IMG/VR virus record: IMGVR_UViG_3300037316_000181
Span: 1-25,492 of that record
Length of the DNA: 25,492 nt
Strand: one strand, 5' to 3'
Source of the DNA: a virus
Shown piece after piece: positions 3,988 through 25,390 of this stretch (position 1 is its first letter; the number at the start of each line of letters is the position of its first letter). The notes below the pieces were generated by a model. It was not told the DNA's origin. It ran no database searches and saw nothing but the letters and a program-made list of their open reading frames with translations. The translations under genes and the position numbers were made by a program.

Positions 3988-4318
3988 ACGCCTCGCGTAA
4001 CTCTGATTGCGCGGGCTCCAAGTAGAGCCCGCACCCGAGCTTTGCCGTCGCCAACCAAATCGCACCTGCAAATTCAGCTGCCGCGCCTTTGTAAGGCCGG
4101 AAGCCCGTTTAGTGGATTTGTCGGGGAATCCCAGTTTTGTAGTCGAGCACGCCCTGCGCTTCGGACTGAGCTGCGCCGCGGCCGGTGAATCAGATTCGCG
4201 CTGTGTAATGTGCCGCTAACGTAATGCGCCAACACCAGCGCGCGGCGACCACGCTTTATGGCCCGGGGCTATTCGTTCAGTATGAACGCCGGAAAAACGT
4301 GCCGAAGAGCCCCGCGGG
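3988..4318. other. Intergenic stretch with a hairpin repeat (family D)
   Basis: This stretch holds the hairpin at 4010-4040 and the leader of the 86-aa gene. No open frame with a ribosome binding site is seen. Confidence 0.4.
4010..4040 (-). repeat. Hairpin repeat, family D
   Basis: On the - strand it reads GGGTGCGGGCTCTACTTGG followed by AGCCCGC, a strong stem-loop. A near copy (GGGTGCGGGCTCTAACTGG then AGCC) is found on the + strand at 16964-16990. Confidence 0.55.
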
Positions 4319-8857: not shown

Positions 8858-8943
8858 ATTCCTGCCTTCAGTGAGATTTTTAACGACATCAATGTGCTTG
8901 CTAAAGTGTGTCGGTATGCCGTGATCGAGCTATGCCGCTCTTT

Positions 8944-8975
8944 TAGTAGCGCAGGCATTCCTGCCTGCGCCCTCA
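8944..8975. repeat. Family B hairpin repeat
   Basis: GCGCAGGCA (8949-8957) and TGCCTGCGC (8962-8970) form a perfect 9-bp stem with loop TTCC. TAGTA precedes it. Confidence 0.8.
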
Positions 8976-9289: not shown

Positions 9290-10000
9290 TTAGCAATTGC
9301 GCGAGGTGTAAGGCCGCCGCCGACGTGCGCTCTGCTGTTCGCGCTGGGTGGCGCGCACGAGCAGATCCTCGAGCGCGTCGGCGCCGGCCTCGTCCCAACG
9401 CGCGGCTTGCGGAGCCCCGCGGGCGGCCGAAGCCATGGCCGCGGTGAAAAACGCGATCGCCTCCTGCGCGTTGCGGACGAGCACGGGGCTCGTCGCGTCG
9501 GTGAGGTCGGGCAAAGCTTTTTCGTAGCGCAGGCGTATCTGCGTGTCCTGCGTGGCGCCGAGAAAATACAAACCGTCGGCGCGCCACTCCCAGTAGACCA
9601 GGCTCGCGTCCTGCGGCAGCGAAGGAAGCCCGCCGTGCGCGGTGAGGTCGAGCATCTCCAGGAAGTCGTCGGTCGATCCGCTGGGCCGCTCCCACAATTT
9701 CAGCGGTACCAGCAAATCGGTGGGCAGTTGGTTGGGAGGCGCGGTCGCATCGGTGATCGAGACTTGCAGCGACGCATCCACTCCGCTTACTGCCGTCACC
9801 ACTAGGAGCGCGTCGTCGCTCAAAAATGTTCCTGACTGCACGCTCGCGAGCGCGCGCTGCACCTTGCGATACGCGGAGTTGGCGTAGGGCAGCAGCACGC
9901 CGTCGGTAAACAAATTGCCAGCCGCATCGTTCAGCAGCGCGCGCACCAGCGAGGTGATTTGTCCCGCGGTGTTATACGCGGATGTTCCGACAACCGGCAT
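9290..10000 (-). CDS. Head-tail adaptor protein (gp11/gp4-like)
   Basis: The 236-aa product is mostly helical. Motifs are ALLNDAAGNLFTDGVLLPY, YANSAYRKVQRALAS, a beta insert, LRLRY-type RLRYEKALPDLTD, and NAQEAIAFFTAAMASA. This matches the style of adaptor proteins that bind under the portal ring and connect head to tail in short-tailed phages. The start is clear, with AGGGGAGGG 4 bases before the ATG at 10000. The gene precedes the nozzle gene, as adaptor genes usually do. The last 30 residues are Gln/Arg-rich. Confidence 0.75.
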   Translation of the reverse strand: MPVVGTSAYNTAGQITSLVRALLNDAAGNLFTDGVLLPYANSAYRKVQRALASVQSGTFLSDDALLVVTAVSGVDASLQVSITDATAPPNQLPTDLLVPLKLWERPSGSTDDFLEMLDLTAHGGLPSLPQDASLVYWEWRADGLYFLGATQDTQIRLRYEKALPDLTDATSPVLVRNAQEAIAFFTAAMASAARGAPQAARWDEAGADALEDLLVRATQREQQSARRRRPYTSRNC

Positions 10001-15453: not shown

Positions 15454-16713
15454 TCAGTATCCGGAGGGCCGAGCCAGGCCGTCGATGTATGCTCCGCTGC
15501 GCGGAGAATCGTTCCAAACCTGAAACCCGGTGTCGAAGTAAAAAATGAACGCGGCGGAAACGCCTCCCGAGCTCCCGTAAATCGGGAACACGGTTTGCCC
15601 ACCGATCTCGAAGAAGTCGATGTCCTTCATCACCGCGCGGCCCCAATGCGACAGGTCGAGGAAATCGACGCGCGTCTGATCGGCGTTGATCGAGGACTTG
15701 ATGGGTACGCCCGACATGGTCTTGCGTCCGGAAAAGAGCAAGTCCAAATCGTTCGCGCGCCCGCCTGCTCCTTCCTTGATCACCTGGCTGATGGTGATGC
15801 CCAGATTTTCCCAGGCGTGCTCCTGCTCGACCGAGGTGTAGGCCACCAGCTGCCCCAGTTGCCCGATGCCCAGCGCCTTGCGCACTTTGTTGATTGCCAG
15901 ACGAACGTAGCTGGGTACCAGCGCCGAATTCGCGGCGTTGACGCGCGGCGTCGCCAGCTGTTGCGGATAGGTCGCGCGATTCAGATTGAGCCACGTGCCG
16001 GTGGCAGCGTTATTCTGGTGATACTTCACGCCGTAAAGCGAGACCGGCTGCGCGCCTGAAAGCCCGTCGTGCACGATTACGTCGGTGGCAATGGTCCCGG
16101 CCGGCAGCGCGTCCACGGTGATGGTCTGCGCACTGATGGGATCGGCCGCTACCACGTTGCACGAGCCGCGGTTGGTGGTGAGCGTGGTGTCGTACACCTG
16201 AATGGTTTGGCCCACGTAAACCAGAGCGGCGCCGCTCGGCACCGTCATCGTGATCGTGTTGCCGCTCACGCCGCCCGTGGCAATCGTGCCCAGCACGCCG
16301 TTCCCGCCCGTCTGAATCAGCTTGTCCAGGAACGAGCGAAACTGCTTCATGCCGTTGGCCACCTCGCGCTTGACGGCGTTTTCGATGGCCTTCTCGCGCG
16401 CGTTGCTGGCGTACTCGATGAGCTTCGAGATCTCCACCGCAAAACGGAAGAAAATCGGCGACACCTGCGCCACGTCGTACGTGGTGCCCGAGCCGCGTCC
16501 CAGATCGCCCCCATCGGCGTTGTACGATCCCGCCTTGCCCCCCGGCACGAGCTGCAAAGGCAGCCGCATGTTGCGCGAGCTGACTTTTTCGACGTCTCCG
16601 CGCTGCTGGATCATCGTCAGCAGCACATCGTCCCGCTCGTACAGCAGCGGCACCTTGTCGCGAACTTTTTCAAGTTGCAGCGCGATGGTCTGCGCATTCT
16701 GCATTTGAGCCAT
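15454..16713 (-). CDS. Major capsid protein (HK97-fold type)
   Basis: The 419-aa product forms the icosahedral shell. It has a helical N-terminal arm (NAQTIALQLEKVRDKVPLLY), the strand region SSRNMRLPLQLVPGGKAGSY, a spine-like helix (AVEISKLIEYASNAREKAIE to LDKLIQTGGNG), a P-domain with many short strands, and a C-terminal part (MSGVPIKSSINADQTRVDF and FPIYGSSGGVSAAFIF). The order after portal and scaffold genes supports the call. The start is fixed at 16713 by GGGAGGGAG just upstream; the longer frame to 16767 runs through the leader hairpins. A terminator upstream suggests the gene has its own promoter or high expression. Confidence 0.88.
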   Translation of the reverse strand: MAQMQNAQTIALQLEKVRDKVPLLYERDDVLLTMIQQRGDVEKVSSRNMRLPLQLVPGGKAGSYNADGGDLGRGSGTTYDVAQVSPIFFRFAVEISKLIEYASNAREKAIENAVKREVANGMKQFRSFLDKLIQTGGNGVLGTIATGGVSGNTITMTVPSGAALVYVGQTIQVYDTTLTTNRGSCNVVAADPISAQTITVDALPAGTIATDVIVHDGLSGAQPVSLYGVKYHQNNAATGTWLNLNRATYPQQLATPRVNAANSALVPSYVRLAINKVRKALGIGQLGQLVAYTSVEQEHAWENLGITISQVIKEGAGGRANDLDLLFSGRKTMSGVPIKSSINADQTRVDFLDLSHWGRAVMKDIDFFEIGGQTVFPIYGSSGGVSAAFIFYFDTGFQVWNDSPRSGAYIDGLARPSGY

Positions 16714-16732
16714 ATGATTCTCCCTCCCCTTG

Positions 16733-16862
16733 GCCGCAGTAGCGGCATACAAAATTAGCCGCAGCAAGCGGCTTTTATAAACTTACCCGCCAAACCGGTT
16801 TACGGAATTGACCGCAGAAGCCGCATAAAGACCCAGCCGCCGTAGGTCAGTTTTTGAAACTG
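16733..16862 (-). promoter_or_regulatory. Hairpin-rich leader of the capsid gene
   Basis: Three stem-loops are visible: GCCGC-AGTA-GCGGC (733-746 of 16 kb, i.e. 16733-16746), AGCCGC-AGCAA-GCGGCT (16757-16773) and CAGTTT-TTG-AAACTG (16848-16862). A related CCGCAGAAGCCGC lies at 16812-16824. With a terminator upstream, this leader should contain the capsid promoter, but I cannot place -35 and -10 boxes with confidence. Confidence 0.4.
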
Positions 16863-16906
16863 GTGGCACCACGCACCGCAACGGACGCCTTGCGTTAAAC
16901 AGTGCC

Positions 16907-16930
16907 AAAAAAAGAGCCACGATCTGGCTC
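16907..16930 (-). terminator. Rho-independent terminator between scaffold and capsid genes
   Basis: On the - strand GAGCCA-GATCG-TGGCTC is followed directly by seven T. It lies downstream of the scaffold gene and upstream of the capsid gene. Confidence 0.75.
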
Positions 16931-16948
16931 CTGAAAGGACTTACCGTT

Positions 16949-17013
16949 GTCATTCTGAGCGGCGGGTGCGGGCTCTAACTGGAGCCGGCTTAATAAAGCG
17001 AAGAATCTCTCTT
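16949..17013 (+). repeat. Family C repeat with an internal hairpin
   Basis: GTCATTCTGAGC (16949-16960) and GCGAAGAATCTCTCTTTC (16998-17015) are the two ends of a widespread dispersed repeat. Between them lie about 37 bases containing a family D hairpin (GGGCTCTAACTGGAGCC). Confidence 0.65.
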
Positions 17014-17053
17014 TCTTTTCTCGCACAGCGGCCAATGTCCGCGCGCTACATCC

Positions 17054-17107
17054 CGACCTTGTAACTCAAGTATTCCCGCGGCTTGCGCGAGACCCGAGGC
17101 TGTTTCC
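17054..17107 (+). repeat. Decayed family A repeat
   Basis: TTGTAACTCAAGTATTCCCG and then GCGAGACCCGAGGCTGTTTCC resemble both ends of family A with several changes. Confidence 0.5.
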
Positions 17108-17171
17108 GAAACGCTCACGCACGCCGCAAACGTGACGACGTCCTTAATCGTGTTCGTCGGTTTTTCGCTCG

Positions 17172-18587
17172 TTACATCCCGAGGATCTCTTCGTCGCTCA
17201 ACCGCCGATAATCGAGATCCCGCGAGCGCGGCATGTTCCCTGCTACCGGTTCCGGCAAGCGCCCTCCGGTAATATCGCGCCGCGAAGCCGCCGCATCGAT
17301 CCGCGCCGTTTTGGCGCGATCGGATGCCAGCACCGAGGAAGTCCACTCGGCCACCACCCGCCGCGCCACTTCCGGAAGCACTGCGCGCGCGCGGCCCGAA
17401 ACCAGCGCCACTACCTGTTGCCGCGCGCTTGCATCGAAGCGCCAGTCGCGCAGCGTGTCGCCCACCCGCCGCGATAGCTCGCGATCTCCCGACAGCGCTG
17501 CGTGCACCTCGCGGAAAATATCTTCGCCGATGCGCCGCCGCGCGCCCGCGGCGACTCCATCGGGCAGCGCCGAAGTCAGCGAGCGGTCAATGGCCTCGTG
17601 CATCTTGCGCGCGACGTCGTCATTGGTCGCCGCCTCAAACGTCCGGTAGGCCTCGGCAGGAAACGCACCGTGCGCGCCCGCAGCATTACTGGAGTCGTTG
17701 CCCGCCCCCGGTAATGAATTGTGGCCCGCATCGCGCCCCGAATTGTGGCCTGAATTATAAGACGTACTGTTCTCAGCGCCGTTTGCTACGCCGCCCGCAC
17801 GCCCCTCAATCGATGAATGCGTACCATTGACGCCGCCGTTGACCGGCCGCGCCACCTGCGAAACACTTTTGCCCCCACCCTGTCGCGCTTCCGCAGCCGG
17901 CGCCCCCAGTTGCTTGGCAAGTTCCGCCAGCCCCTCCGGATCGCGCGCCGCCAGCGTGCGCGCGCTCGCCGCCAGCATCTCGCGAAACGCCGCGGGATCG
18001 CTAGCGTAGAGCCGCTCCGCCAGTCCTGCACGCGCGCTCGAATCGGTGCTGAAGTAAGCCGCATCGAGTGCCGCCACATCCTTGGCCGCCGCCTGCCAGC
18101 GGCGCGCCTCCGCTGCAGCCGCAGGCTGCGCATCAAGCGCCGCCAGCCACGCCGGCTCGCTTGTCGCGTCGCCGGCTCGCTCAGCAGATGCGGCGCCCTC
18201 CGGCTCCTCATCTGTCGAACTGTCACTACGCGCCGAAGAGTCCGTCACGTCACGCAACGCTTCCTCAGCCGCATCCGCAGCCGCTGTCGCCGAGGACGAC
18301 ACCGCGTCCGCCGTCTCCGTGAGCGCTCCGCGTTCTGCCGCACCCCCCGTCCTGCCGTCGATCATGCGCCGCGCCCAGTCGCCGACCGCATCTGTCGCCG
18401 CGCGCCTTGCAGCTCGCGCCGTGTCGCTGCTCGCATCCGTCGCCGCGCGCCCTACGGCGCGCGCCGTTCCGTTGCTCGCCTCGCCGGACTCATTCTCCGG
18501 CGCCAATTCCATATCCAAAATCTGTTCGTCAGTAAGCGTCGCCGTCGCGACGCGGCCGCTGCCGGCGCTGCCATCTCCCTGCTGCAT
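17172..18587 (-). CDS. Scaffold-like protein upstream of the capsid gene
   Basis: The 471-aa product is acidic and Ala/Arg-rich. It has a low-complexity N-terminal half with a near-duplicate (TARAVGRAATDASSDTARAA then RRAATDA, about 41-66), an Asn/Gly/Ser-rich linker (265-305) and a helical C-terminal domain (about 310-425). The motif LTDEQILDMEL (18-28) near the start returns as LSDEEILGM (463-471) at the very end. Position between portal and capsid, length and composition fit a scaffolding protein that guides shell assembly. The start at 18587 has AGGAGG 9 bases upstream; a GTG at 18611 lies before that site. Confidence 0.68.
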   Translation of the reverse strand: MQQGDGSAGSGRVATATLTDEQILDMELAPENESGEASNGTARAVGRAATDASSDTARAARRAATDAVGDWARRMIDGRTGGAAERGALTETADAVSSSATAAADAAEEALRDVTDSSARSDSSTDEEPEGAASAERAGDATSEPAWLAALDAQPAAAAEARRWQAAAKDVAALDAAYFSTDSSARAGLAERLYASDPAAFREMLAASARTLAARDPEGLAELAKQLGAPAAEARQGGGKSVSQVARPVNGGVNGTHSSIEGRAGGVANGAENSTSYNSGHNSGRDAGHNSLPGAGNDSSNAAGAHGAFPAEAYRTFEAATNDDVARKMHEAIDRSLTSALPDGVAAGARRRIGEDIFREVHAALSGDRELSRRVGDTLRDWRFDASARQQVVALVSGRARAVLPEVARRVVAEWTSSVLASDRAKTARIDAAASRRDITGGRLPEPVAGNMPRSRDLDYRRLSDEEILGM

Positions 18588-18638
18588 ATTGCAATCGCCT
18601 CCTGACCCCACGGGCCTAATTCTTCCGGCGCTATGGTC

Positions 18639-18715
18639 CTGTAGCTCGGGTCGTCGCCGCCGGCGCGGTAAGCACCGCTAAATAAATCAGTGCCGGGCGA
18701 CCCGAGGCCTTTTCC
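18639..18715 (+). repeat. Family A repeat, long form
   Basis: GTAGCTCGGGTCG and CGACCCGAGGCC are the ends, around a centre that holds a further GCGGTAAGCACCGC hairpin. It lies between the portal and scaffold genes. Confidence 0.85.
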
Positions 18716-18748
18716 GTTCGCTCTGGAAATTTGCCCGGTGCGGCTCCC

Positions 18749-21475
18749 CTACTTCTTCGCCGGTGCCGCCGGCGCTGCCATCGCCGTTGCCAGCGCCTGC
18801 CTGTGTGCAAGGGCCAGAGCATGCTCGCCGGCGTGCGCGCGCACATTCGCAAATCCCGCAGGATTCTGCGCCCGCGCGATTTGCCCCGCGTCGGAGCTCG
18901 CCCAGCGCCGGCACTCCTCGAACTCGGTCGCGTGATCGTCGAGCAATTCATCCACCGCCACCGTCGAGATCAGGTGCACCTCGCCTCCACTCGTGGCCGC
19001 ATCCGTGCCGGAATCGCTGGCCCCGGCATCCTGATTCAACGTGCTCGCCGCTTCCGGAGTAGTTGCGGCGTCGCTCATGTCTGCGCGTCCACTCTCCCGC
19101 GCCTCGCGCCTCGCCACCGGAACCACCATCGGTCCCGCAGCCAGCAATTGCTGAATCTCGCGCAGTTGCTTGGTGCGCGCATCTTCACCGGGCACCACCA
19201 GTTCGCCCAGGCCGATGAGCGACTTGATGAATCCCAGGTTTGCCGGCTCGCGCAATGCCGCTTGAATCGTCGGATCGGCGCTGGTCATCAGTTGTTGCAG
19301 CACCGCGCGCTGCTGCGATTTCAATCGCGGAAACGTTTCATCCGATTCCGGATGCGCCTGGATATTGCCCTTCAAATCCGCCAGGCGAATGAATTTCGCC
19401 TCGAACTGCCCGCCCGCGCCGAGAAATGGAATCTCCACATCATTCGGCCGGTTCTTGCGGAAGCAATCCACCGACAGCAGCATCACGTCGCCGTAAAAAT
19501 GTTTCAGCCGCCGCCACACCAGCCCCAGCCTGCCGAGCGCCTGGTCGCGCGCCATGGCGTAGCCGCTGGCCGTCTTGACGTTTTCCATTTCGCCGCCGAA
19601 CACGGCAGGAAACAGCCCGGTCAGAAATTGCGCGATGGGACCGATCAAATCCTGCTGATGCCGCAGCATGTCGGGAGGCACTTGCGCCGGCGCCGGCTGG
19701 AAAAATCCGTCCGCGAGCGACATGCCCGGCCGCGCGCGCGCCGGATAGTGCGCCGCGGGTTCGGCCGTCTGGCTTTGCAGCGCGTCGAAATCGAGCACCT
19801 GCGGGTCCGCATAAATCGGCGGGATGCCGTACTCGTATGTCTCCGCCTGAATATTCGACAGCGTGTTGTAGCGCTCCTGCACTTCGATCAGCGATTCGCC
19901 CACGCTCGGACGATTCTGTCCGTCGCCGGGCAGCGCATGCATCACGCGCCAGCAATCGTCCATCGATTCGTTGCGCGATTCGCAATAGGTGTCGCCCGCA
20001 AATCCCGCGTAGCATCCGTCGGGAAACAGGCCGAGCAGCGCGTCGCGCACCGCCGCGTCCTCGATGGCGTAAAACGCCCATGGCCGTATCCAGGTGCGCG
20101 AAAATGTCACCAGGTTGAACAGCGCGTCGCCCGCCTGTCCGGAAGACATGCCCTGCGCCACCGCCACGCGCGTCGCGCGCGCGTAAATGTCGTCGGCCGA
20201 CGCCGCTCCGCCCATTTGAATTTTGTCTGCGACGTGCGGGTACGCCGCCTTCAATTTCGCGCGGTGCACCTCGAGCTGCCACTGCAAGTACGGAAATTCG
20301 TGCTGCTCGTTGGCCCATACCGGCGTGTTCAGCTCGAGCCCGCCGATAATCGAGATCACTTCCTGCCCGTTCGGAACGCGCCGCGTTCCGATACTCAGTG
20401 GCACTGGCACCAGTGGCGCCGCGTTGAACTCCGCATCGCCAAGCGCCGTGCCGCAGCCGGGGCAAATCGCGCCGGCGAGAAACGCCGGCGAGTCTTGTTG
20501 GCCGCTTACCGCGTAACGTTGTTGATCGCCGCTTACCGTGGCGCTCTCCTGGCCGCTTACCGCGTCATCGCGCACGTCGCTCCCAGCGCCGTCTGCCGCG
20601 TCGTCCGCATCGTCCGCGCTCGCGCCGCCCGCAATCTCGGTCTCCTCGCCACATTGCGAGCACACATACGCGTCGCGCCCCAGCCGTACCCAGCGCTCTT
20701 CGAGCACCAGCTCATCGCGCCACCCAAACCGCTGCCCATCGGCCACGTAGCGCACGTAGCCGCCGATCTTCCCATCGGTCCACAAATAAAATCCCAGGCC
20801 CGTCAGCAATTGCTCGGCGTGATTGTTCTGCTCGATCAGCTTCGCCACCTCAGAGCCCGCCTTCGCCGTGGTGATGTCCGCCTCGGAAAGCGTTGACTGC
20901 GGATAGAACCGCGTCGCCGGCACGTCCTGGCTGATCACCGAGACGAACGAAAGCCCAAACGCCTGGTACAAATTCGTCACGAACTGGTAGCGCGGCATGT
21001 CTTCGAGCGCCGACGCGTCGTGAATCTTCGCTTCGGTCGGCAGATGCCAGCTCATGTCTTGCGGATTCCACCAGGCATATTGCAATCCCTGCCAGAACAG
21101 GCGCGCCTGCCGTATCCGACGAATTTCATGCCGCCGCGCAGCGAGTCCTTCCGTGCGGTACTGCACCACCAGCTCGCGCAGTGCGTTCACCAGTTGCGGC
21201 GCCACGTCCGCCAGCCGCTCGTTGTTCGAGCCGAGATCCTGCGGCAGAGGCACGCCACCCGCCGATTGCGCCGCCGCTTCGGCGGCATTTCCGTCAGCTT
21301 CAACGGTGCCACCGCGCTCAGCAACCTTCAGCATCTTGATGCCGTTGCCGGAAGCGCCGCCAGCCGCATTTTTGCCAGCGCCGCTCACCGCGGCATCTCC
21401 AGCTGCGCCGCTTACTGCGGCGCCGCCATTCGCGAACATCGTCATGTTGTCAGGCATCGTCACGTTGGTCGCCAT
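18749..21475 (-). CDS. Portal protein with a zinc-knuckle insertion
   Basis: The 908-aa product is the likely portal, the dodecameric ring through which DNA enters the head. Supporting motifs are an N-terminal helical part (RRIRQARLFWQGLQYAWWNP, PRYQFVTNLYQAFGLSFVSV), the body with SLIEVQERYNTLSNIQAETY, and VKTASGYAMARDQALGRLG. A long C-terminal region follows. It is larger than most portals. Two cysteine pairs, C272-SQC275 and C338-PGC341, frame a loop of low-complexity repeats (AVSGQ, TVSGDQ, AVSGQ). The Gly/Ala-rich first 45 residues hold similar AAVSGA units. It lies between terminase and scaffold genes, as portals do. The start lacks a strong ribosome binding site. Confidence 0.78.
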   Translation of the reverse strand: MATNVTMPDNMTMFANGGAAVSGAAGDAAVSGAGKNAAGGASGNGIKMLKVAERGGTVEADGNAAEAAAQSAGGVPLPQDLGSNNERLADVAPQLVNALRELVVQYRTEGLAARRHEIRRIRQARLFWQGLQYAWWNPQDMSWHLPTEAKIHDASALEDMPRYQFVTNLYQAFGLSFVSVISQDVPATRFYPQSTLSEADITTAKAGSEVAKLIEQNNHAEQLLTGLGFYLWTDGKIGGYVRYVADGQRFGWRDELVLEERWVRLGRDAYVCSQCGEETEIAGGASADDADDAADGAGSDVRDDAVSGQESATVSGDQQRYAVSGQQDSPAFLAGAICPGCGTALGDAEFNAAPLVPVPLSIGTRRVPNGQEVISIIGGLELNTPVWANEQHEFPYLQWQLEVHRAKLKAAYPHVADKIQMGGAASADDIYARATRVAVAQGMSSGQAGDALFNLVTFSRTWIRPWAFYAIEDAAVRDALLGLFPDGCYAGFAGDTYCESRNESMDDCWRVMHALPGDGQNRPSVGESLIEVQERYNTLSNIQAETYEYGIPPIYADPQVLDFDALQSQTAEPAAHYPARARPGMSLADGFFQPAPAQVPPDMLRHQQDLIGPIAQFLTGLFPAVFGGEMENVKTASGYAMARDQALGRLGLVWRRLKHFYGDVMLLSVDCFRKNRPNDVEIPFLGAGGQFEAKFIRLADLKGNIQAHPESDETFPRLKSQQRAVLQQLMTSADPTIQAALREPANLGFIKSLIGLGELVVPGEDARTKQLREIQQLLAAGPMVVPVARREARESGRADMSDAATTPEAASTLNQDAGASDSGTDAATSGGEVHLISTVAVDELLDDHATEFEECRRWASSDAGQIARAQNPAGFANVRAHAGEHALALAHRQALATAMAAPAAPAKK
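20501..20564 (-). repeat. Short in-frame repeats inside the portal gene
   Basis: GCCGCTTACCG occurs at 20501, 20528 and 20552, spaced 27 and 24 bases. It encodes the (A/T)VSG units of the zinc-knuckle loop. Related GCCGCTTACTG and GCCGCTCACCG copies lie in the first codons of the gene (about 21383-21420). Confidence 0.7.
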
Positions 21476-21557
21476 CCTATCGTCCGCTTCGTCTTAGGAA
21501 TTCACGCGTTCATCGCGCGCGGACTTGAGCCTCTCCACTTTCATAAATTCAGGCGCT

Positions 21558-21688
21558 GTCATTCTGAGAGGATGTGACTTTATTGTGATATGACGATTTT
21601 TTCGCATCTAAGCCCGTTGTTTTCAGCGTCGCTTTTTGCGAGAAATCAAAAAAGTCACAGCCTCTGAGCGAAGCGAAGAATCTCTCAT
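21558..21688 (+). repeat. Family C repeat split by an insertion
   Basis: GTCATTCTGAG (21558-21568) and CTGAGCGAAGCGAAGAATC (from 21664) together rebuild the family C sequence once one CTGAG is removed. Confidence 0.75.
21569..21663. mobile_element. Candidate 95-bp MITE
   Basis: The element begins AGGATGTGACTTT (21569-21581) and ends AAAGTCACAGCCT (21651-21663). These ends are inverted repeats of 13 bp with one mismatch. It is flanked on both sides by CTGAG (21564-21568 and 21664-21668), a 5-bp target duplication, and it interrupts a family C repeat. It has no coding capacity, so a transposase elsewhere must have moved it. Confidence 0.75.
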
Positions 21689-21732
21689 TCTTCCGCCTCG
21701 CATGCCGCCGCACGCACCGCGTACGTCCACCG

Positions 21733-22095
21733 CTACGCCCTCCGTGCCCGCTCCGCGGCGCGCGCCTCGCGCGCAACCTCGATCTCCCGCTGCGTCGCAA
21801 TCTGAGGCCACGACCGCCGCCGCACCGCCGGCACGCTAGCCGGATGCATCGGCGGCGTCTCGATAGGAGGCACCCCCGCCGTACCGAGCACCGAATTCAG
21901 CAGCGCGCGATTCTCCACGCGCAGCCTCTCGATCTCCGCGCGCTCCCGGGCGACTTCCTCGCACTCCCGCGCCACTTCCGCGCGCGCGTGCGCAACTTCA
22001 TCGCGCGATCGCGCGACTTCGTCCTCGAGCAGCCGCACGTACCCGCCGCGCAACGCGCGGCGCACCCGCGTGCACCACTCCGCTATCGTTTTCAC
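21733..22095 (-). CDS. Small coiled-coil phage protein
   Basis: The 120-aa product is almost entirely charged helix from about 20 to 66, with heptad-like repeats (EVARSRDEVAHARAEVAREC). A Pro-rich linker (PPIETPPMHPASVP) and an Arg/Ala-rich end follow. It starts with GTG at 22095, with AGGA 7 bases upstream. It lies between the large terminase and the portal. A role in packaging or head assembly is inferred from position only. Confidence 0.6.
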   Translation of the reverse strand: MKTIAEWCTRVRRALRGGYVRLLEDEVARSRDEVAHARAEVARECEEVARERAEIERLRVENRALLNSVLGTAGVPPIETPPMHPASVPAVRRRSWPQIATQREIEVAREARAAERARRA

Positions 22096-22262
22096 CGTAA
22101 TTTCCTGATTACAACACGTTAAGAATGTGGATCACGGCGAGGAATCAAGTCTAATCCACCGACGCCGTGAGCCAGGAAACCAAAGCGCCCGTCCCGCTCG
22201 AATACGATTGGGAGCGCGTGACAAGACACATCTCCCTCAAGCTCCCAACAAGTAGTCTGCTC

Positions 22263-23771
22263 CTACCAACGGTGCGGCACCGGCACCGACCGCGAAGCCC
22301 GCCGCTCCTCGGCCATAAACTTCTGCATCCAGATCGCGCGCGAAGTTGCATCCACCGCGGTGATGCGCTCAGCCACTCGGCGTTCCGCGGGAGCGCGTCC
22401 CGGCGCGAGCCGCGTCTTGAGCCCATACCGCGCGCTGTCCGCGGGATCGTCGCCACTCGACTTCAGCACATCCTCGACATTTGCCGGATCGCGCGTCAGC
22501 GTCGGCAAGCACTCGATCAGCCGCGCGCACGAATCCGCGATTACCCACTGCTCCTGCTCCAGCATCTGGTACAAAAACATCCAGCCGCCCACGCGATCGT
22601 CGTCCGCGGGAGCCGGCCGCGGCAGGCCGTTTTGCGCCAACACATCTCCGAGTTGTTCCGCGATCGTCGATTCCGACGAGCGCCGCGCGTACGCGTCGGG
22701 CGAAAGATAAACCTCCGCGATGCGCTCGAACCGCCCCTCCGCGTCGAGCGAACGCTCCGCAATCGCCTGCCCCAGCATGCGCGGAGACAAATGATTGGCC
22801 ACGAATTCGCGATACGTCAGCACCGCCCCGTCGGGACGCGCCGCGTGCCAGTACACCGCGCTCGGATGCTCGAAGCCCCAGTCCACCGAGATCCACCGCG
22901 GCCACCACGTCTCGATTCCCAGCCGCTCGGCGCGCGCGGTATGCCGGCGCACGTCGAACAAATCAAAATATTGCCCCGCGAAAACGTTCCAGTCGCCCAC
23001 CAGAAACGCCTGGCGCAGATGGCGCGGCAGCGCGTCGAGCGTCTTCAAATAATCGGCGTCATCCTTGTAGAGCGGATTATCCGCCAGCGTCGCGCGAATG
23101 AACGCGTAGTCCTCCGGATCGTATTGCCCCGGCCGGTCCATCCCCGGAGCGGGCCGCTTGTCCACCCACAGCGCCTTTACCCAGGCGTGCCCGATGTTTC
23201 CGGGGTTGGTTGCGCCGGCCATATTCGGCTGCACATCCGCATGCGTGCAGCGATTGCGGCTGGTTAGAAATTGCCACTGCCCCAGCGTGAAAAGCGTCAG
23301 CTCGTCGATGCCGATAAAAGTAAACTCGGCGCCCTGGTACTGGTAAATATCCGACTCGCTCGCCGAGTAGCCGAACCGCGTGGTCGACCCGTTCAGCCAG
23401 GTGACCACGTGCTTGCTGTCGTTGTAGCTCGCATACATCTCGCGCGGCACGTCGCGCCGGAAATAACTCAGCAGCGAAGTCTCGAGCTCCGGAAACGTGC
23501 GCCGCAGCAGCAGCGTATCGATCCGCGCGTGGTCGTGGGCCTGGCGAATCGCCTCCCACAATAGCGCCTTGGTTTTTCCGGGACCCGCCGCGCCTCCAAA
23601 CAGCCGATACTTCGCGGTCGATTCGTGAAATTCCTTCTGCCGCGGAAACGCCGTATAAACGTCCGAGATCCGCAGCTTACGCAGCGGCTCCGGCTTCCCG
23701 CCGCGGGCGACACTCGCGGCCGCGCCAGCGGCGCGATTCGTTGCGCGGATATTTTTCTTTTTGCTCGCCAC
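22263..23771 (-). CDS. terL: Terminase large subunit (packaging ATPase/nuclease)
   Basis: The 502-aa product drives DNA into the head and cuts it. The ATPase has Walker A GGAAGPGKT (59-67), Walker B FTFIGIDEL (151-159, with D157 and E158) and a coupling motif GATNPG (187-192). The nuclease half starts with WISVDWGFEHPSAVYW (first metal Asp D298), with further acidic residues around VYLSPDAYA. All expected parts are present, so it looks intact. The GTG start at 23771 has GAGG just upstream. A Lys-rich N-terminus (MASKKK) precedes the ATPase. Similar order and motifs are found in short-tailed and some siphophages. Confidence 0.95.
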   Translation of the reverse strand: MASKKKNIRATNRAAGAAASVARGGKPEPLRKLRISDVYTAFPRQKEFHESTAKYRLFGGAAGPGKTKALLWEAIRQAHDHARIDTLLLRRTFPELETSLLSYFRRDVPREMYASYNDSKHVVTWLNGSTTRFGYSASESDIYQYQGAEFTFIGIDELTLFTLGQWQFLTSRNRCTHADVQPNMAGATNPGNIGHAWVKALWVDKRPAPGMDRPGQYDPEDYAFIRATLADNPLYKDDADYLKTLDALPRHLRQAFLVGDWNVFAGQYFDLFDVRRHTARAERLGIETWWPRWISVDWGFEHPSAVYWHAARPDGAVLTYREFVANHLSPRMLGQAIAERSLDAEGRFERIAEVYLSPDAYARRSSESTIAEQLGDVLAQNGLPRPAPADDDRVGGWMFLYQMLEQEQWVIADSCARLIECLPTLTRDPANVEDVLKSSGDDPADSARYGLKTRLAPGRAPAERRVAERITAVDATSRAIWMQKFMAEERRASRSVPVPHRW

Positions 23772-23802
23772 GTAGCCTCGTTGCCCGCCGCGCCCCGCTT
23801 AA

Positions 23803-23970
23803 TCAGGATTGCCGCAGCTTGTATCCCGTCGCGAGCGCCGCGATCCCGGCCACAAAACAGACGCCGATAGCGTAGTGATGCACGCTCAGAATAACTCCCG
23901 CCACCACCGCTGCCGCTCCGCCCAATTCTACGATTTGCGCGATCTTCACCATTTGCGCAGACAAAGTCAT
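23803..23970 (-). CDS. 55-aa membrane peptide, holin-like
   Basis: The product has two hydrophobic stretches (about 16-30, GGAAAVVAGVILSV, and 34-49, AIGVCFVAGIAALATG) with HHY between and a basic end (YKLRQS). The ATG at 23970 has GGGAGGACGAGG just upstream, an excellent ribosome binding site. It lies 31 bases before the large terminase gene. Its shape fits a small holin or another phage membrane peptide, but nothing else identifies it. Confidence 0.6.
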   Translation of the reverse strand: MTLSAQMVKIAQIVELGGAAAVVAGVILSVHHYAIGVCFVAGIAALATGYKLRQS

Positions 23971-24090
23971 CCTCGTCCTCCCAATTCTCTAAGACGATTT
24001 GTAAATCTTGATGGAAACGTTCAGACGGCCCACATATACGCAGTGCGTGTCCGAAGCGCGTGGTGTTGGGTTCATCCAAATCGCCGGGCT

Positions 24091-24126
24091 TGTAGCACAG
24101 GCATTCGTGCCTGTGCGCTTTACGCG
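24091..24126. repeat. Family B hairpin repeat
   Basis: GCACAGGCA (24095-24103) and TGCCTGTGC (24108-24116) form a perfect 9-bp stem with loop TTCG, followed by GCTTTACGC. Confidence 0.85.
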
Positions 24127-24177
24127 GGTCGTGAATCTGTTAATACGCACGCCACGTAAGCGGTTCGGACGAAGTTT

Positions 24178-24669
24178 CTAGCGCGGTTCGCGCACAGGCC
24201 CGGGCATGTCCCAGATGATTTGCAGCGCCGGTGCGGCTTCGCCGCCCGCCGGCGCAAACTCGCCCAGCGCGTAGTGCACCAGCGTCTCCCACACGCGTGC
24301 CTTCACCGTCGCGCTTTTCGATTGCAGCAGTTCCTGCCCGATGGTGACCATGTTGCTCTTCGCGAAAACAGCCTTCGCCAACCCACGATGGTTGCGCGGA
24401 GCCCGCCGTTTCGCCGGCTTCCTCGCGCCCGCTCCCAATCGGGAAGCCGCTCGCAAAGCCAAGCACGAAGCTTCGCTCGCTGTTTTCACCTTAGTTGTTT
24501 TCGCCCCAGCCGCTTTCGCCCCCACTGTTTTCGCCGCGCGCACCTTCACGTTACGTGCGGATGCGTCGCGCACTTCCGGTGGAGGTGCGCCCAAATCGGC
24601 GGCCTTGGTAGCACAACTCTTGCCTGCGCGCTTTTCTCCGGCCGTCATCGTTGATTTTTTCGGAGACAT
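24178..24669 (-). CDS. Probable terminase small subunit with a basic N-terminal tail
   Basis: The 163-aa product has a Lys/Ala/Arg-rich N-terminal region (1-95, for example KVRAAKTVGAKAAGAKTTK) that resembles histone-H1-like tails. A compact helical part follows (97-135, AKSNMVTIGQELLQSKSATV and ARVWETLVHYALGE). It lies two genes before the large terminase, where the small subunit usually is, and the helical end fits the oligomerising part of such proteins. I recognise no firm DNA-binding domain. The ATG at 24669 lacks a strong ribosome binding site; a second ATG lies seven codons in. Part of the tail is encoded by a family B-like sequence. Confidence 0.5.
   Translation of the reverse strand: MSPKKSTMTAGEKRAGKSCATKAADLGAPPPEVRDASARNVKVRAAKTVGAKAAGAKTTKVKTASEASCLALRAASRLGAGARKPAKRRAPRNHRGLAKAVFAKSNMVTIGQELLQSKSATVKARVWETLVHYALGEFAPAGGEAAPALQIIWDMPGPVREPR
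24605..24640. repeat. Family B-like repeat inside a coding region
   Basis: TTGGTAGCACAACTCTTGCC followed by TGCGCGCTTTT matches the family B pattern, with about four bases of the left arm missing. It encodes part of the basic tail of the small-terminase candidate. Confidence 0.5.
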
Positions 24670-24750
24670 CGAAATCAGCTAACTTCGCCGTCAATCCCGC
24701 CCAAATCCGTGCACGCCGTCGTCATCCTGCACCCTAGCCCCATCCGCACA

Positions 24751-25125
24751 TCACACCAGCAGCTTTGCCGTGAACCCCGCGCCCGCTCCCACCGTCGAGC
24801 TATTCACTTTAAGGCGCAGAAAACTAGCCTGCACCCCGGTGACCGTGCGTGCCTCGCCCGCGGCATTGGTGCTCGCGTCGATGTCCTTGTACTCGGCGTC
24901 CACGTCGGCCATGGCCGCTTGCAGACTCACATTGATGGCCGTAGGAGCGGTCCCGAAAAGTGTCTGCCAGCGCACCGCCCGCGACTGGTCGGGAATCCCC
25001 GCCGGATGCGGCAACGCGAATTGCGCCCCGGCAGCGGCGGCGGGCACCGCTTCATTGTTGAACGAATACCCCACATCGCCAGGTGAAAGCGCCAGCGGTG
25101 GCACCGCACTCGAATAGCTAGGCAT
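24751..25125 (-). CDS. Phage structural-type protein of unknown function
   Basis: The 124-aa product is the first gene of the visible - strand series. It is beta-rich, with WQTLFGTAPTAINVSLQAAM in the centre and a Gly-rich end (SSTVGAGAGFTAKLLV), a style seen in small virion proteins. The start is the ATG at 25125, with GAGGAG about 8 bases upstream; the frame itself runs to 25143. Its place before the terminase genes would suit a decoration or fibre-associated protein, but the function is unknown. Confidence 0.6.
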   Translation of the reverse strand: MPSYSSAVPPLALSPGDVGYSFNNEAVPAAAAGAQFALPHPAGIPDQSRAVRWQTLFGTAPTAINVSLQAAMADVDAEYKDIDASTNAAGEARTVTGVQASFLRLKVNSSTVGAGAGFTAKLLV

Positions 25126-25228
25126 GTCAGCATCTCCTCGCACGCCGTAGGCGCGCCGAAATATTGCCAGCGCCAGTGGCGCATAATTAATTTGAATTCG
25201 GAAGCGAACGGAACGACCGCGGCAGGAA

Positions 25229-25246
25229 GCGTCTCAACCGAGACGC
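25229..25246. repeat. Perfect stem-loop next to the terminator
   Basis: GCGTCTC-AACC-GAGACGC has a 7-bp stem. It has no T run on either strand, so it is not itself a standard terminator. Confidence 0.6.
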
Positions 25247-25280: not shown

Positions 25281-25369
25281 GCCGGACGTAACTTTCTACC
25301 AACCCAGTATACCACCCGAGTCAAACCAAGAATCAAAGCCGAGTCAAAGTTCAACGTCGCGCGCGCCTT

Positions 25370-25390
25370 TGGTAGCGCAGGCACTCATGC
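25370..25390. repeat. Truncated family B repeat
   Basis: GGTAGCGCAGGCACTCATGC matches the left two-thirds of family B. The expected right arm is replaced by unrelated sequence from 25391. Confidence 0.65.

Follow-up and report, generated by a model that had tools for sequence, protein, structure and literature searches.

Introduction

Some members of the IS1182 family of insertion sequences (ISs) are known to target palindromes, and for IS1272, which is placed in this family, a replacement of stem-loops with no duplication of the target has been proposed (PMC5678879). Non-autonomous elements linked to IS1182 have been described in Methanosarcina acetivorans, where the ISMac2-related MITEs are 160 and 169 bp long with ends of 25-26 bp and duplications of 4 or 0 bp, taking the published table columns as IR and DR sizes (PMC3852290). 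ISPsy8, ISPa11, ISPpu9/10, ISRm22 and ISRm19 occupy one fixed REP position in all of their copies; such REP-targeting has been reported for the IS3, IS110, IS4, IS256 and IS5 families, and IS1182 is not listed among these (PMC1525189).

Here we describe a 95 bp stretch in a viral record of 25,492 bases (the window), an Acidobacteria phage, which encodes a terminase large subunit and gives a weak match to a major head protein. This stretch is very probably a MITE mobilised in trans by an IS1182-family DDE transposase and inserting at the CTNAG of a REP-like repeat.

Results

A short element interrupts a REP-like repeat in the phage

The stretch at 21569-21663 has inverted ends of 13 bp with one mismatch, and is flanked on each side by a CTGAG direct repeat. 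A reading made earlier from the letters of this DNA alone (the sequence-only reading) had called it a MITE with such ends flanked by CTGAG; its coordinates are exact to the base, and the two pentamers could be located. The features are as follows.

21569..21663, no strand: non-autonomous MITE of 95 bp, from the sequence and from relatives in several genomes
21569..21581, no strand: left terminal inverted repeat AGGATGTGACTTT; AGNNTGTGACTTT is also found in relatives and full-length ISs
21651..21663, no strand: right terminal inverted repeat AAAGTCACAGCCT, one mismatch relative to the left end
21564..21568, no strand: left copy of the target-site duplication CTGAG
21664..21668, no strand: right copy of the target-site duplication CTGAG
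21558..21568, + strand: portion of the split REP-like target repeat to the left of the element, GTCATTCTGAG, by comparison with empty host copies
21664..21686, + strand: portion of the split REP-like target repeat to the right of the element, CTGAGCGAAGCGAAGAATCTCTC
21609..21626, - strand: conserved core motif of the MITE family, CTGAAAACAACGGGCTTA (consensus CTGAAAACAANNNNCTTA), from an alignment of 11 subfamily representatives

The element contains no plausible gene and lies in the spacer between a 908-residue gene (18749-21475), which is assigned as the portal by position and gave no PHROGs match, and a 120-residue ORF (21733-22095). The REP-like repeat that it splits reads GTCATTCTGAG before the element and CGAAGCGAAGAATC after it. 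Removal of the element together with one CTGAG yields GTCATTCTGAGCGAAGCGAAGAATCTCTC, a canonical member of a repeat family dispersed in the hosts, which bears out the earlier claim that this deletion restores a repeat of what was then named family C.

By itself a 13 bp inverted repeat at such spacing is not rare, as the window holds 13 overlapping matches at about five places. What sets the element beyond chance is the occurrence of the complete element, with these ends and this duplication, at dozens of other loci.

The phage genome also carries scattered REP-like repeats resembling GTAGCGCAGGCATTCCTGC at 8936-8964, 9514-9542, 24082-24110 and 25362-25390. Related phages (L090-L100) have other palindromic repeats, for example GCAGATCCCTCGTCGTTCGCCCGCGTGAAGACACGCGGACGAACTTCCTCGGGATGACA, in the spacer upstream of the portal-position gene. 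At 33-1423 of the window there are a HesB/IscA-like ORF, with an unnamed PHROGs match only, and a thioredoxin-fold-like ORF, both assigned by reading translations; these ORFs may be the host flank of a prophage.

Relatives of the element in other genomes

A two-end pattern scan of GTDB genomes returned 22 stretches, of which 20 came from Acidobacteria MAGs and the other two from Rhodoblastus acidophilus and Paenibacillus, one each. The Acidobacteria MAGs and R. acidophilus hold relatives of 94-97 bp in unrelated flanks. The Paenibacillus locus (L010) fits the end pattern without element or duplication and was taken as a chance match. A further locus (L062) resembles the element and has both of its ends, but its sequence includes Ns and it was left out. 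These hosts are mostly MAGs, whose contigs often break at the REP-like repeats.

The MAG palsa_189 (G001) carries the phage of the window. One of its loci (L018) matches window positions 16673-21692 at 98.8% and another (L013) matches 21490-25230 at 99.65%, both including the element. Past about position 4994 of L018 the phage match ends, at window position 21692, and other sequence follows; this junction just past the element may be an assembly join at the repeat or a real recombination. Within the family of G001 the distribution of the MITE is patchy, with a sequence profile (R1) detecting it in 5 of 89 searched genomes (E<=1e-6). BLAST of the element against phages and plasmids gave short chance matches only, and a pattern scan of viral contigs found no end pair; 25 viral-contig matches to one end had no partner end and were read as chance.

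The element inserts into pre-existing repeats

Unoccupied repeats matching CGCTCRGNATGACA number 5, 71, 108, 23 and 8 in the five host genomes G001-G005, a total of 215, with 0 matches for a reversed-pattern control. In G003, near-identical copies of a longer occupied repeat stand empty with a single CTCAG. Furthermore, nine elements in G002 are 100% identical to each other, while their target repeats average only 88% identity and the outer flanks are unrelated. Together with the direct duplications described below, these observations show that the element enters repeats which are already present and is not an internal part of them. The sequence-only reading had asked for empty family C sites in related strains, and had named the same 95 bp centre in every family C copy as the finding that would overturn its view. 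The centre is not present in every copy, and empty copies are abundant; those in the five host genomes are paralogous, not orthologous.

No orthologous empty site was found in a close phage, the nearest relatives (portal-position protein about 78% identical) having different spacers. The window has one further repeat copy, at 16949-17011 (GTCATTCTGAG...GAAGAATCTCTC), which lacks the 95 bp centre and is split by a different short palindrome, CGGGTGCGGGCTCTAACTGGAGCCGGCTTAAT. The inverted counterpart of this insert lies at 4006-4037.

Insertion occurs at a CTNAG pentamer

We tabulated the flanks of the copies in 37 rows after flank deduplication, two of which are the full-length ISs described below. 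One row is a chance match (L108) and one locus was entered twice (L161), giving about 35 real insertions; the pattern set L021 and L151 in the wrong frame, and by eye they read CTCAG/CTGAG and CTGAG/CTGAG, respectively. An exact 5 bp direct duplication is present in 23/37 rows and a 6 bp duplication in 0/37. Flank identity over the 37 rows is 4.2/5 in frame and drops to roughly 1.5 or below at all shifted offsets. The flanking pentamers comprise CTGAG (28), CTCAG (21), CCGAG (7), CTCGG (4) and rarer variants. Hence the CTGAG duplication named by the sequence-only reading holds for the window, and across copies it broadens to CTNAG (CTGAG, CTCAG, CCGAG or CTCGG). The copies are thus dispersed and bear target-site duplications, as MITEs do.

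The CTNAG-like target usually lies within one and the same REP-like repeat, and both orientations of the element relative to this repeat are seen. The insertion point in the repeat is fixed, as it is for the REP-targeting ISs. The repeat is palindromic by inspection, and in 11 sampled copies 39/55 arm positions are paired against a shuffle maximum of 37. Insertions are found in other repeats too, at L007 and in Rhodoblastus; the surroundings of one Rhodoblastus copy resemble a repeat of which its genome has 36 exact matches. One longer repeat of G003 has two copies in which an identical CTCAG position is filled by members of two different MITE subfamilies. Insertion sites of the family keep their repeat and show a 5 bp duplication, unlike stem-loop replacement, in which the stem-loop is lost and nothing is duplicated.

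That most copies share one repeat and one position within it would also be expected if the 95 bp centre and the flanking repeat formed one composite palindromic repeat (BIME/REPIN-like) spreading as a unit. This is most improbable, and is largely refuted by the 215 empty repeats. It is further opposed by the identical elements within diverged repeats, by the two MITE subfamilies in copies of one repeat, by the insertions at L007 and in Rhodoblastus, and by the duplication itself, which is a direct repeat and no extension of the inverted ends.

Full-length ISs have the same ends and target

The sequence-only reading had proposed that matching ends on a full-length IS would identify the transposase, and two such ISs were found, both IS1182-type and both in genomes other than the host of the window. 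The IS in G002 (L054:598-2132, 1535 bp) has the MITE ends, is flanked by CTCAG and CTCGG and lies in the same target repeat. Its 462-residue transposase scores 310.6 bits against NCBIfam NF033551 (IS1182), above the curated cut-off of 270, and has DUF772 and DDE domains. The IS in G003 (L075:1338-2892, 1555 bp) also has the MITE ends, with CTCAG on both sides at the same target site, and its transposase is 73% identical to the first. The MITEs therefore have ends in common with autonomous ISs, and the two kinds of element co-reside in both genomes; further copies of the IS ends are found at contig ends in G002.

A search of G001 for an IS with these ends, and hence for the partner of the subfamily to which the window copy belongs, gave none; this MAG may be incomplete. 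The G002 transposase had no match at E<=1e-100 in the 89 genomes of the G001 family, a threshold that diverged partners would escape, and no transposase was found in viral contigs. The empty-handed search of G001, and a MITE centre unlike that of the ISs, could mean that the element is moved by a transposase of another family whose ends are similar, the link to IS1182 being coincidental. We consider this very unlikely, given that two ISs have the same ends, CTCAG/CTCGG flanks and target site, and co-reside with the MITEs in G002 and G003. From these shared features we infer that an IS1182-type transposase moved the window copy.

The centre and fold of the element

A motif, CTGAAAACA...CTTA, is conserved in the MITE centre, and an alignment of the 11 subfamily representatives has CTGAAAACANNNNNCTTA-like bases common to the centre. 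By inspection this core is absent from both ISs and the centre is unlike the subterminal sequence of either, the MITE and ISs having in common only the end and a few bases. It follows that the MITE is not a simple deletion of these ISs. Internal deletion of a partner IS is usual for MITEs, though not required, and an origin from another IS is possible. Since the MITEs share a core which neither IS has, they are more readily understood as a satellite lineage than as recent deletion products of the L054 and L075 ISs. The earlier MITE assignment thus stands with the refinement that its centre is no shortened copy of the ISs found.

The element folds far better than shuffled sequences, as RNA or DNA, and its intergenic location would also suit a phage structured RNA or terminator that is not mobile. 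However, an Rfam search with the element gave no match, and a consensus RNA fold pairs nothing but the inverted ends, with no compensatory changes. The target duplications carried by the dispersed copies refute an RNA or terminator as the origin of the element, and we regard such a reading as extremely unlikely.

A model for insertion

In the model that we favour, of a MITE mobilised in trans, the transposase would recognise the AGNNTGTGACTTT ends and excise or copy the element. Insertion, in either orientation, would then be at a CTNAG pentamer situated where loop meets stem in a short REP-like palindrome, and would duplicate these 5 bp. Such an insertion into a REP-like repeat of the spacer that separates the 908-residue gene from the 120-residue ORF would have given rise to the phage copy. 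The target repeat may be recognised as structure rather than sequence.

Comparison with known systems

The elements resemble the IS1182 family in that a partner transposase exceeds the NCBIfam IS1182 cut-off and has DUF772 and DDE domains. Like the ISMac2-related MITEs they are non-autonomous and IS1182-linked, and hence of a kind already described, as the Methanosarcina precedent shows (PMC3852290). In contrast to that precedent, the window family is 95 bp long, with ends of 13 bp and a duplication of 5 bp. As with the REP-targeting ISs, insertion is at a fixed point in a palindromic repeat, whereas the family here is IS1182 and not one of those described (PMC1525189). In a search of open-access papers we found no report of IS1182 combined with REP-like target specificity.

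A broader and tentative proposal, which we would put at somewhat less than even, is that a lineage of IS1182-type transposons and satellite MITEs with their own core has become a specialist of REP-like palindromes across more than one phylum. It would recognise a hairpin border and not one sequence, and phage-borne repeats would be its landing pads, possibly moving it from host to host. REP-like repeats also occur in phage spacers, and so may offer such elements a harmless site on a carrier that passes from cell to cell.

The locus links a MITE family, an IS family, an exact target and the unoccupied target, and it adds IS1182 to the families using REP-like repeats as landing sites. Unlike the stem-loop replacement proposed for IS1272, insertion here duplicates 5 bp and keeps the repeat.
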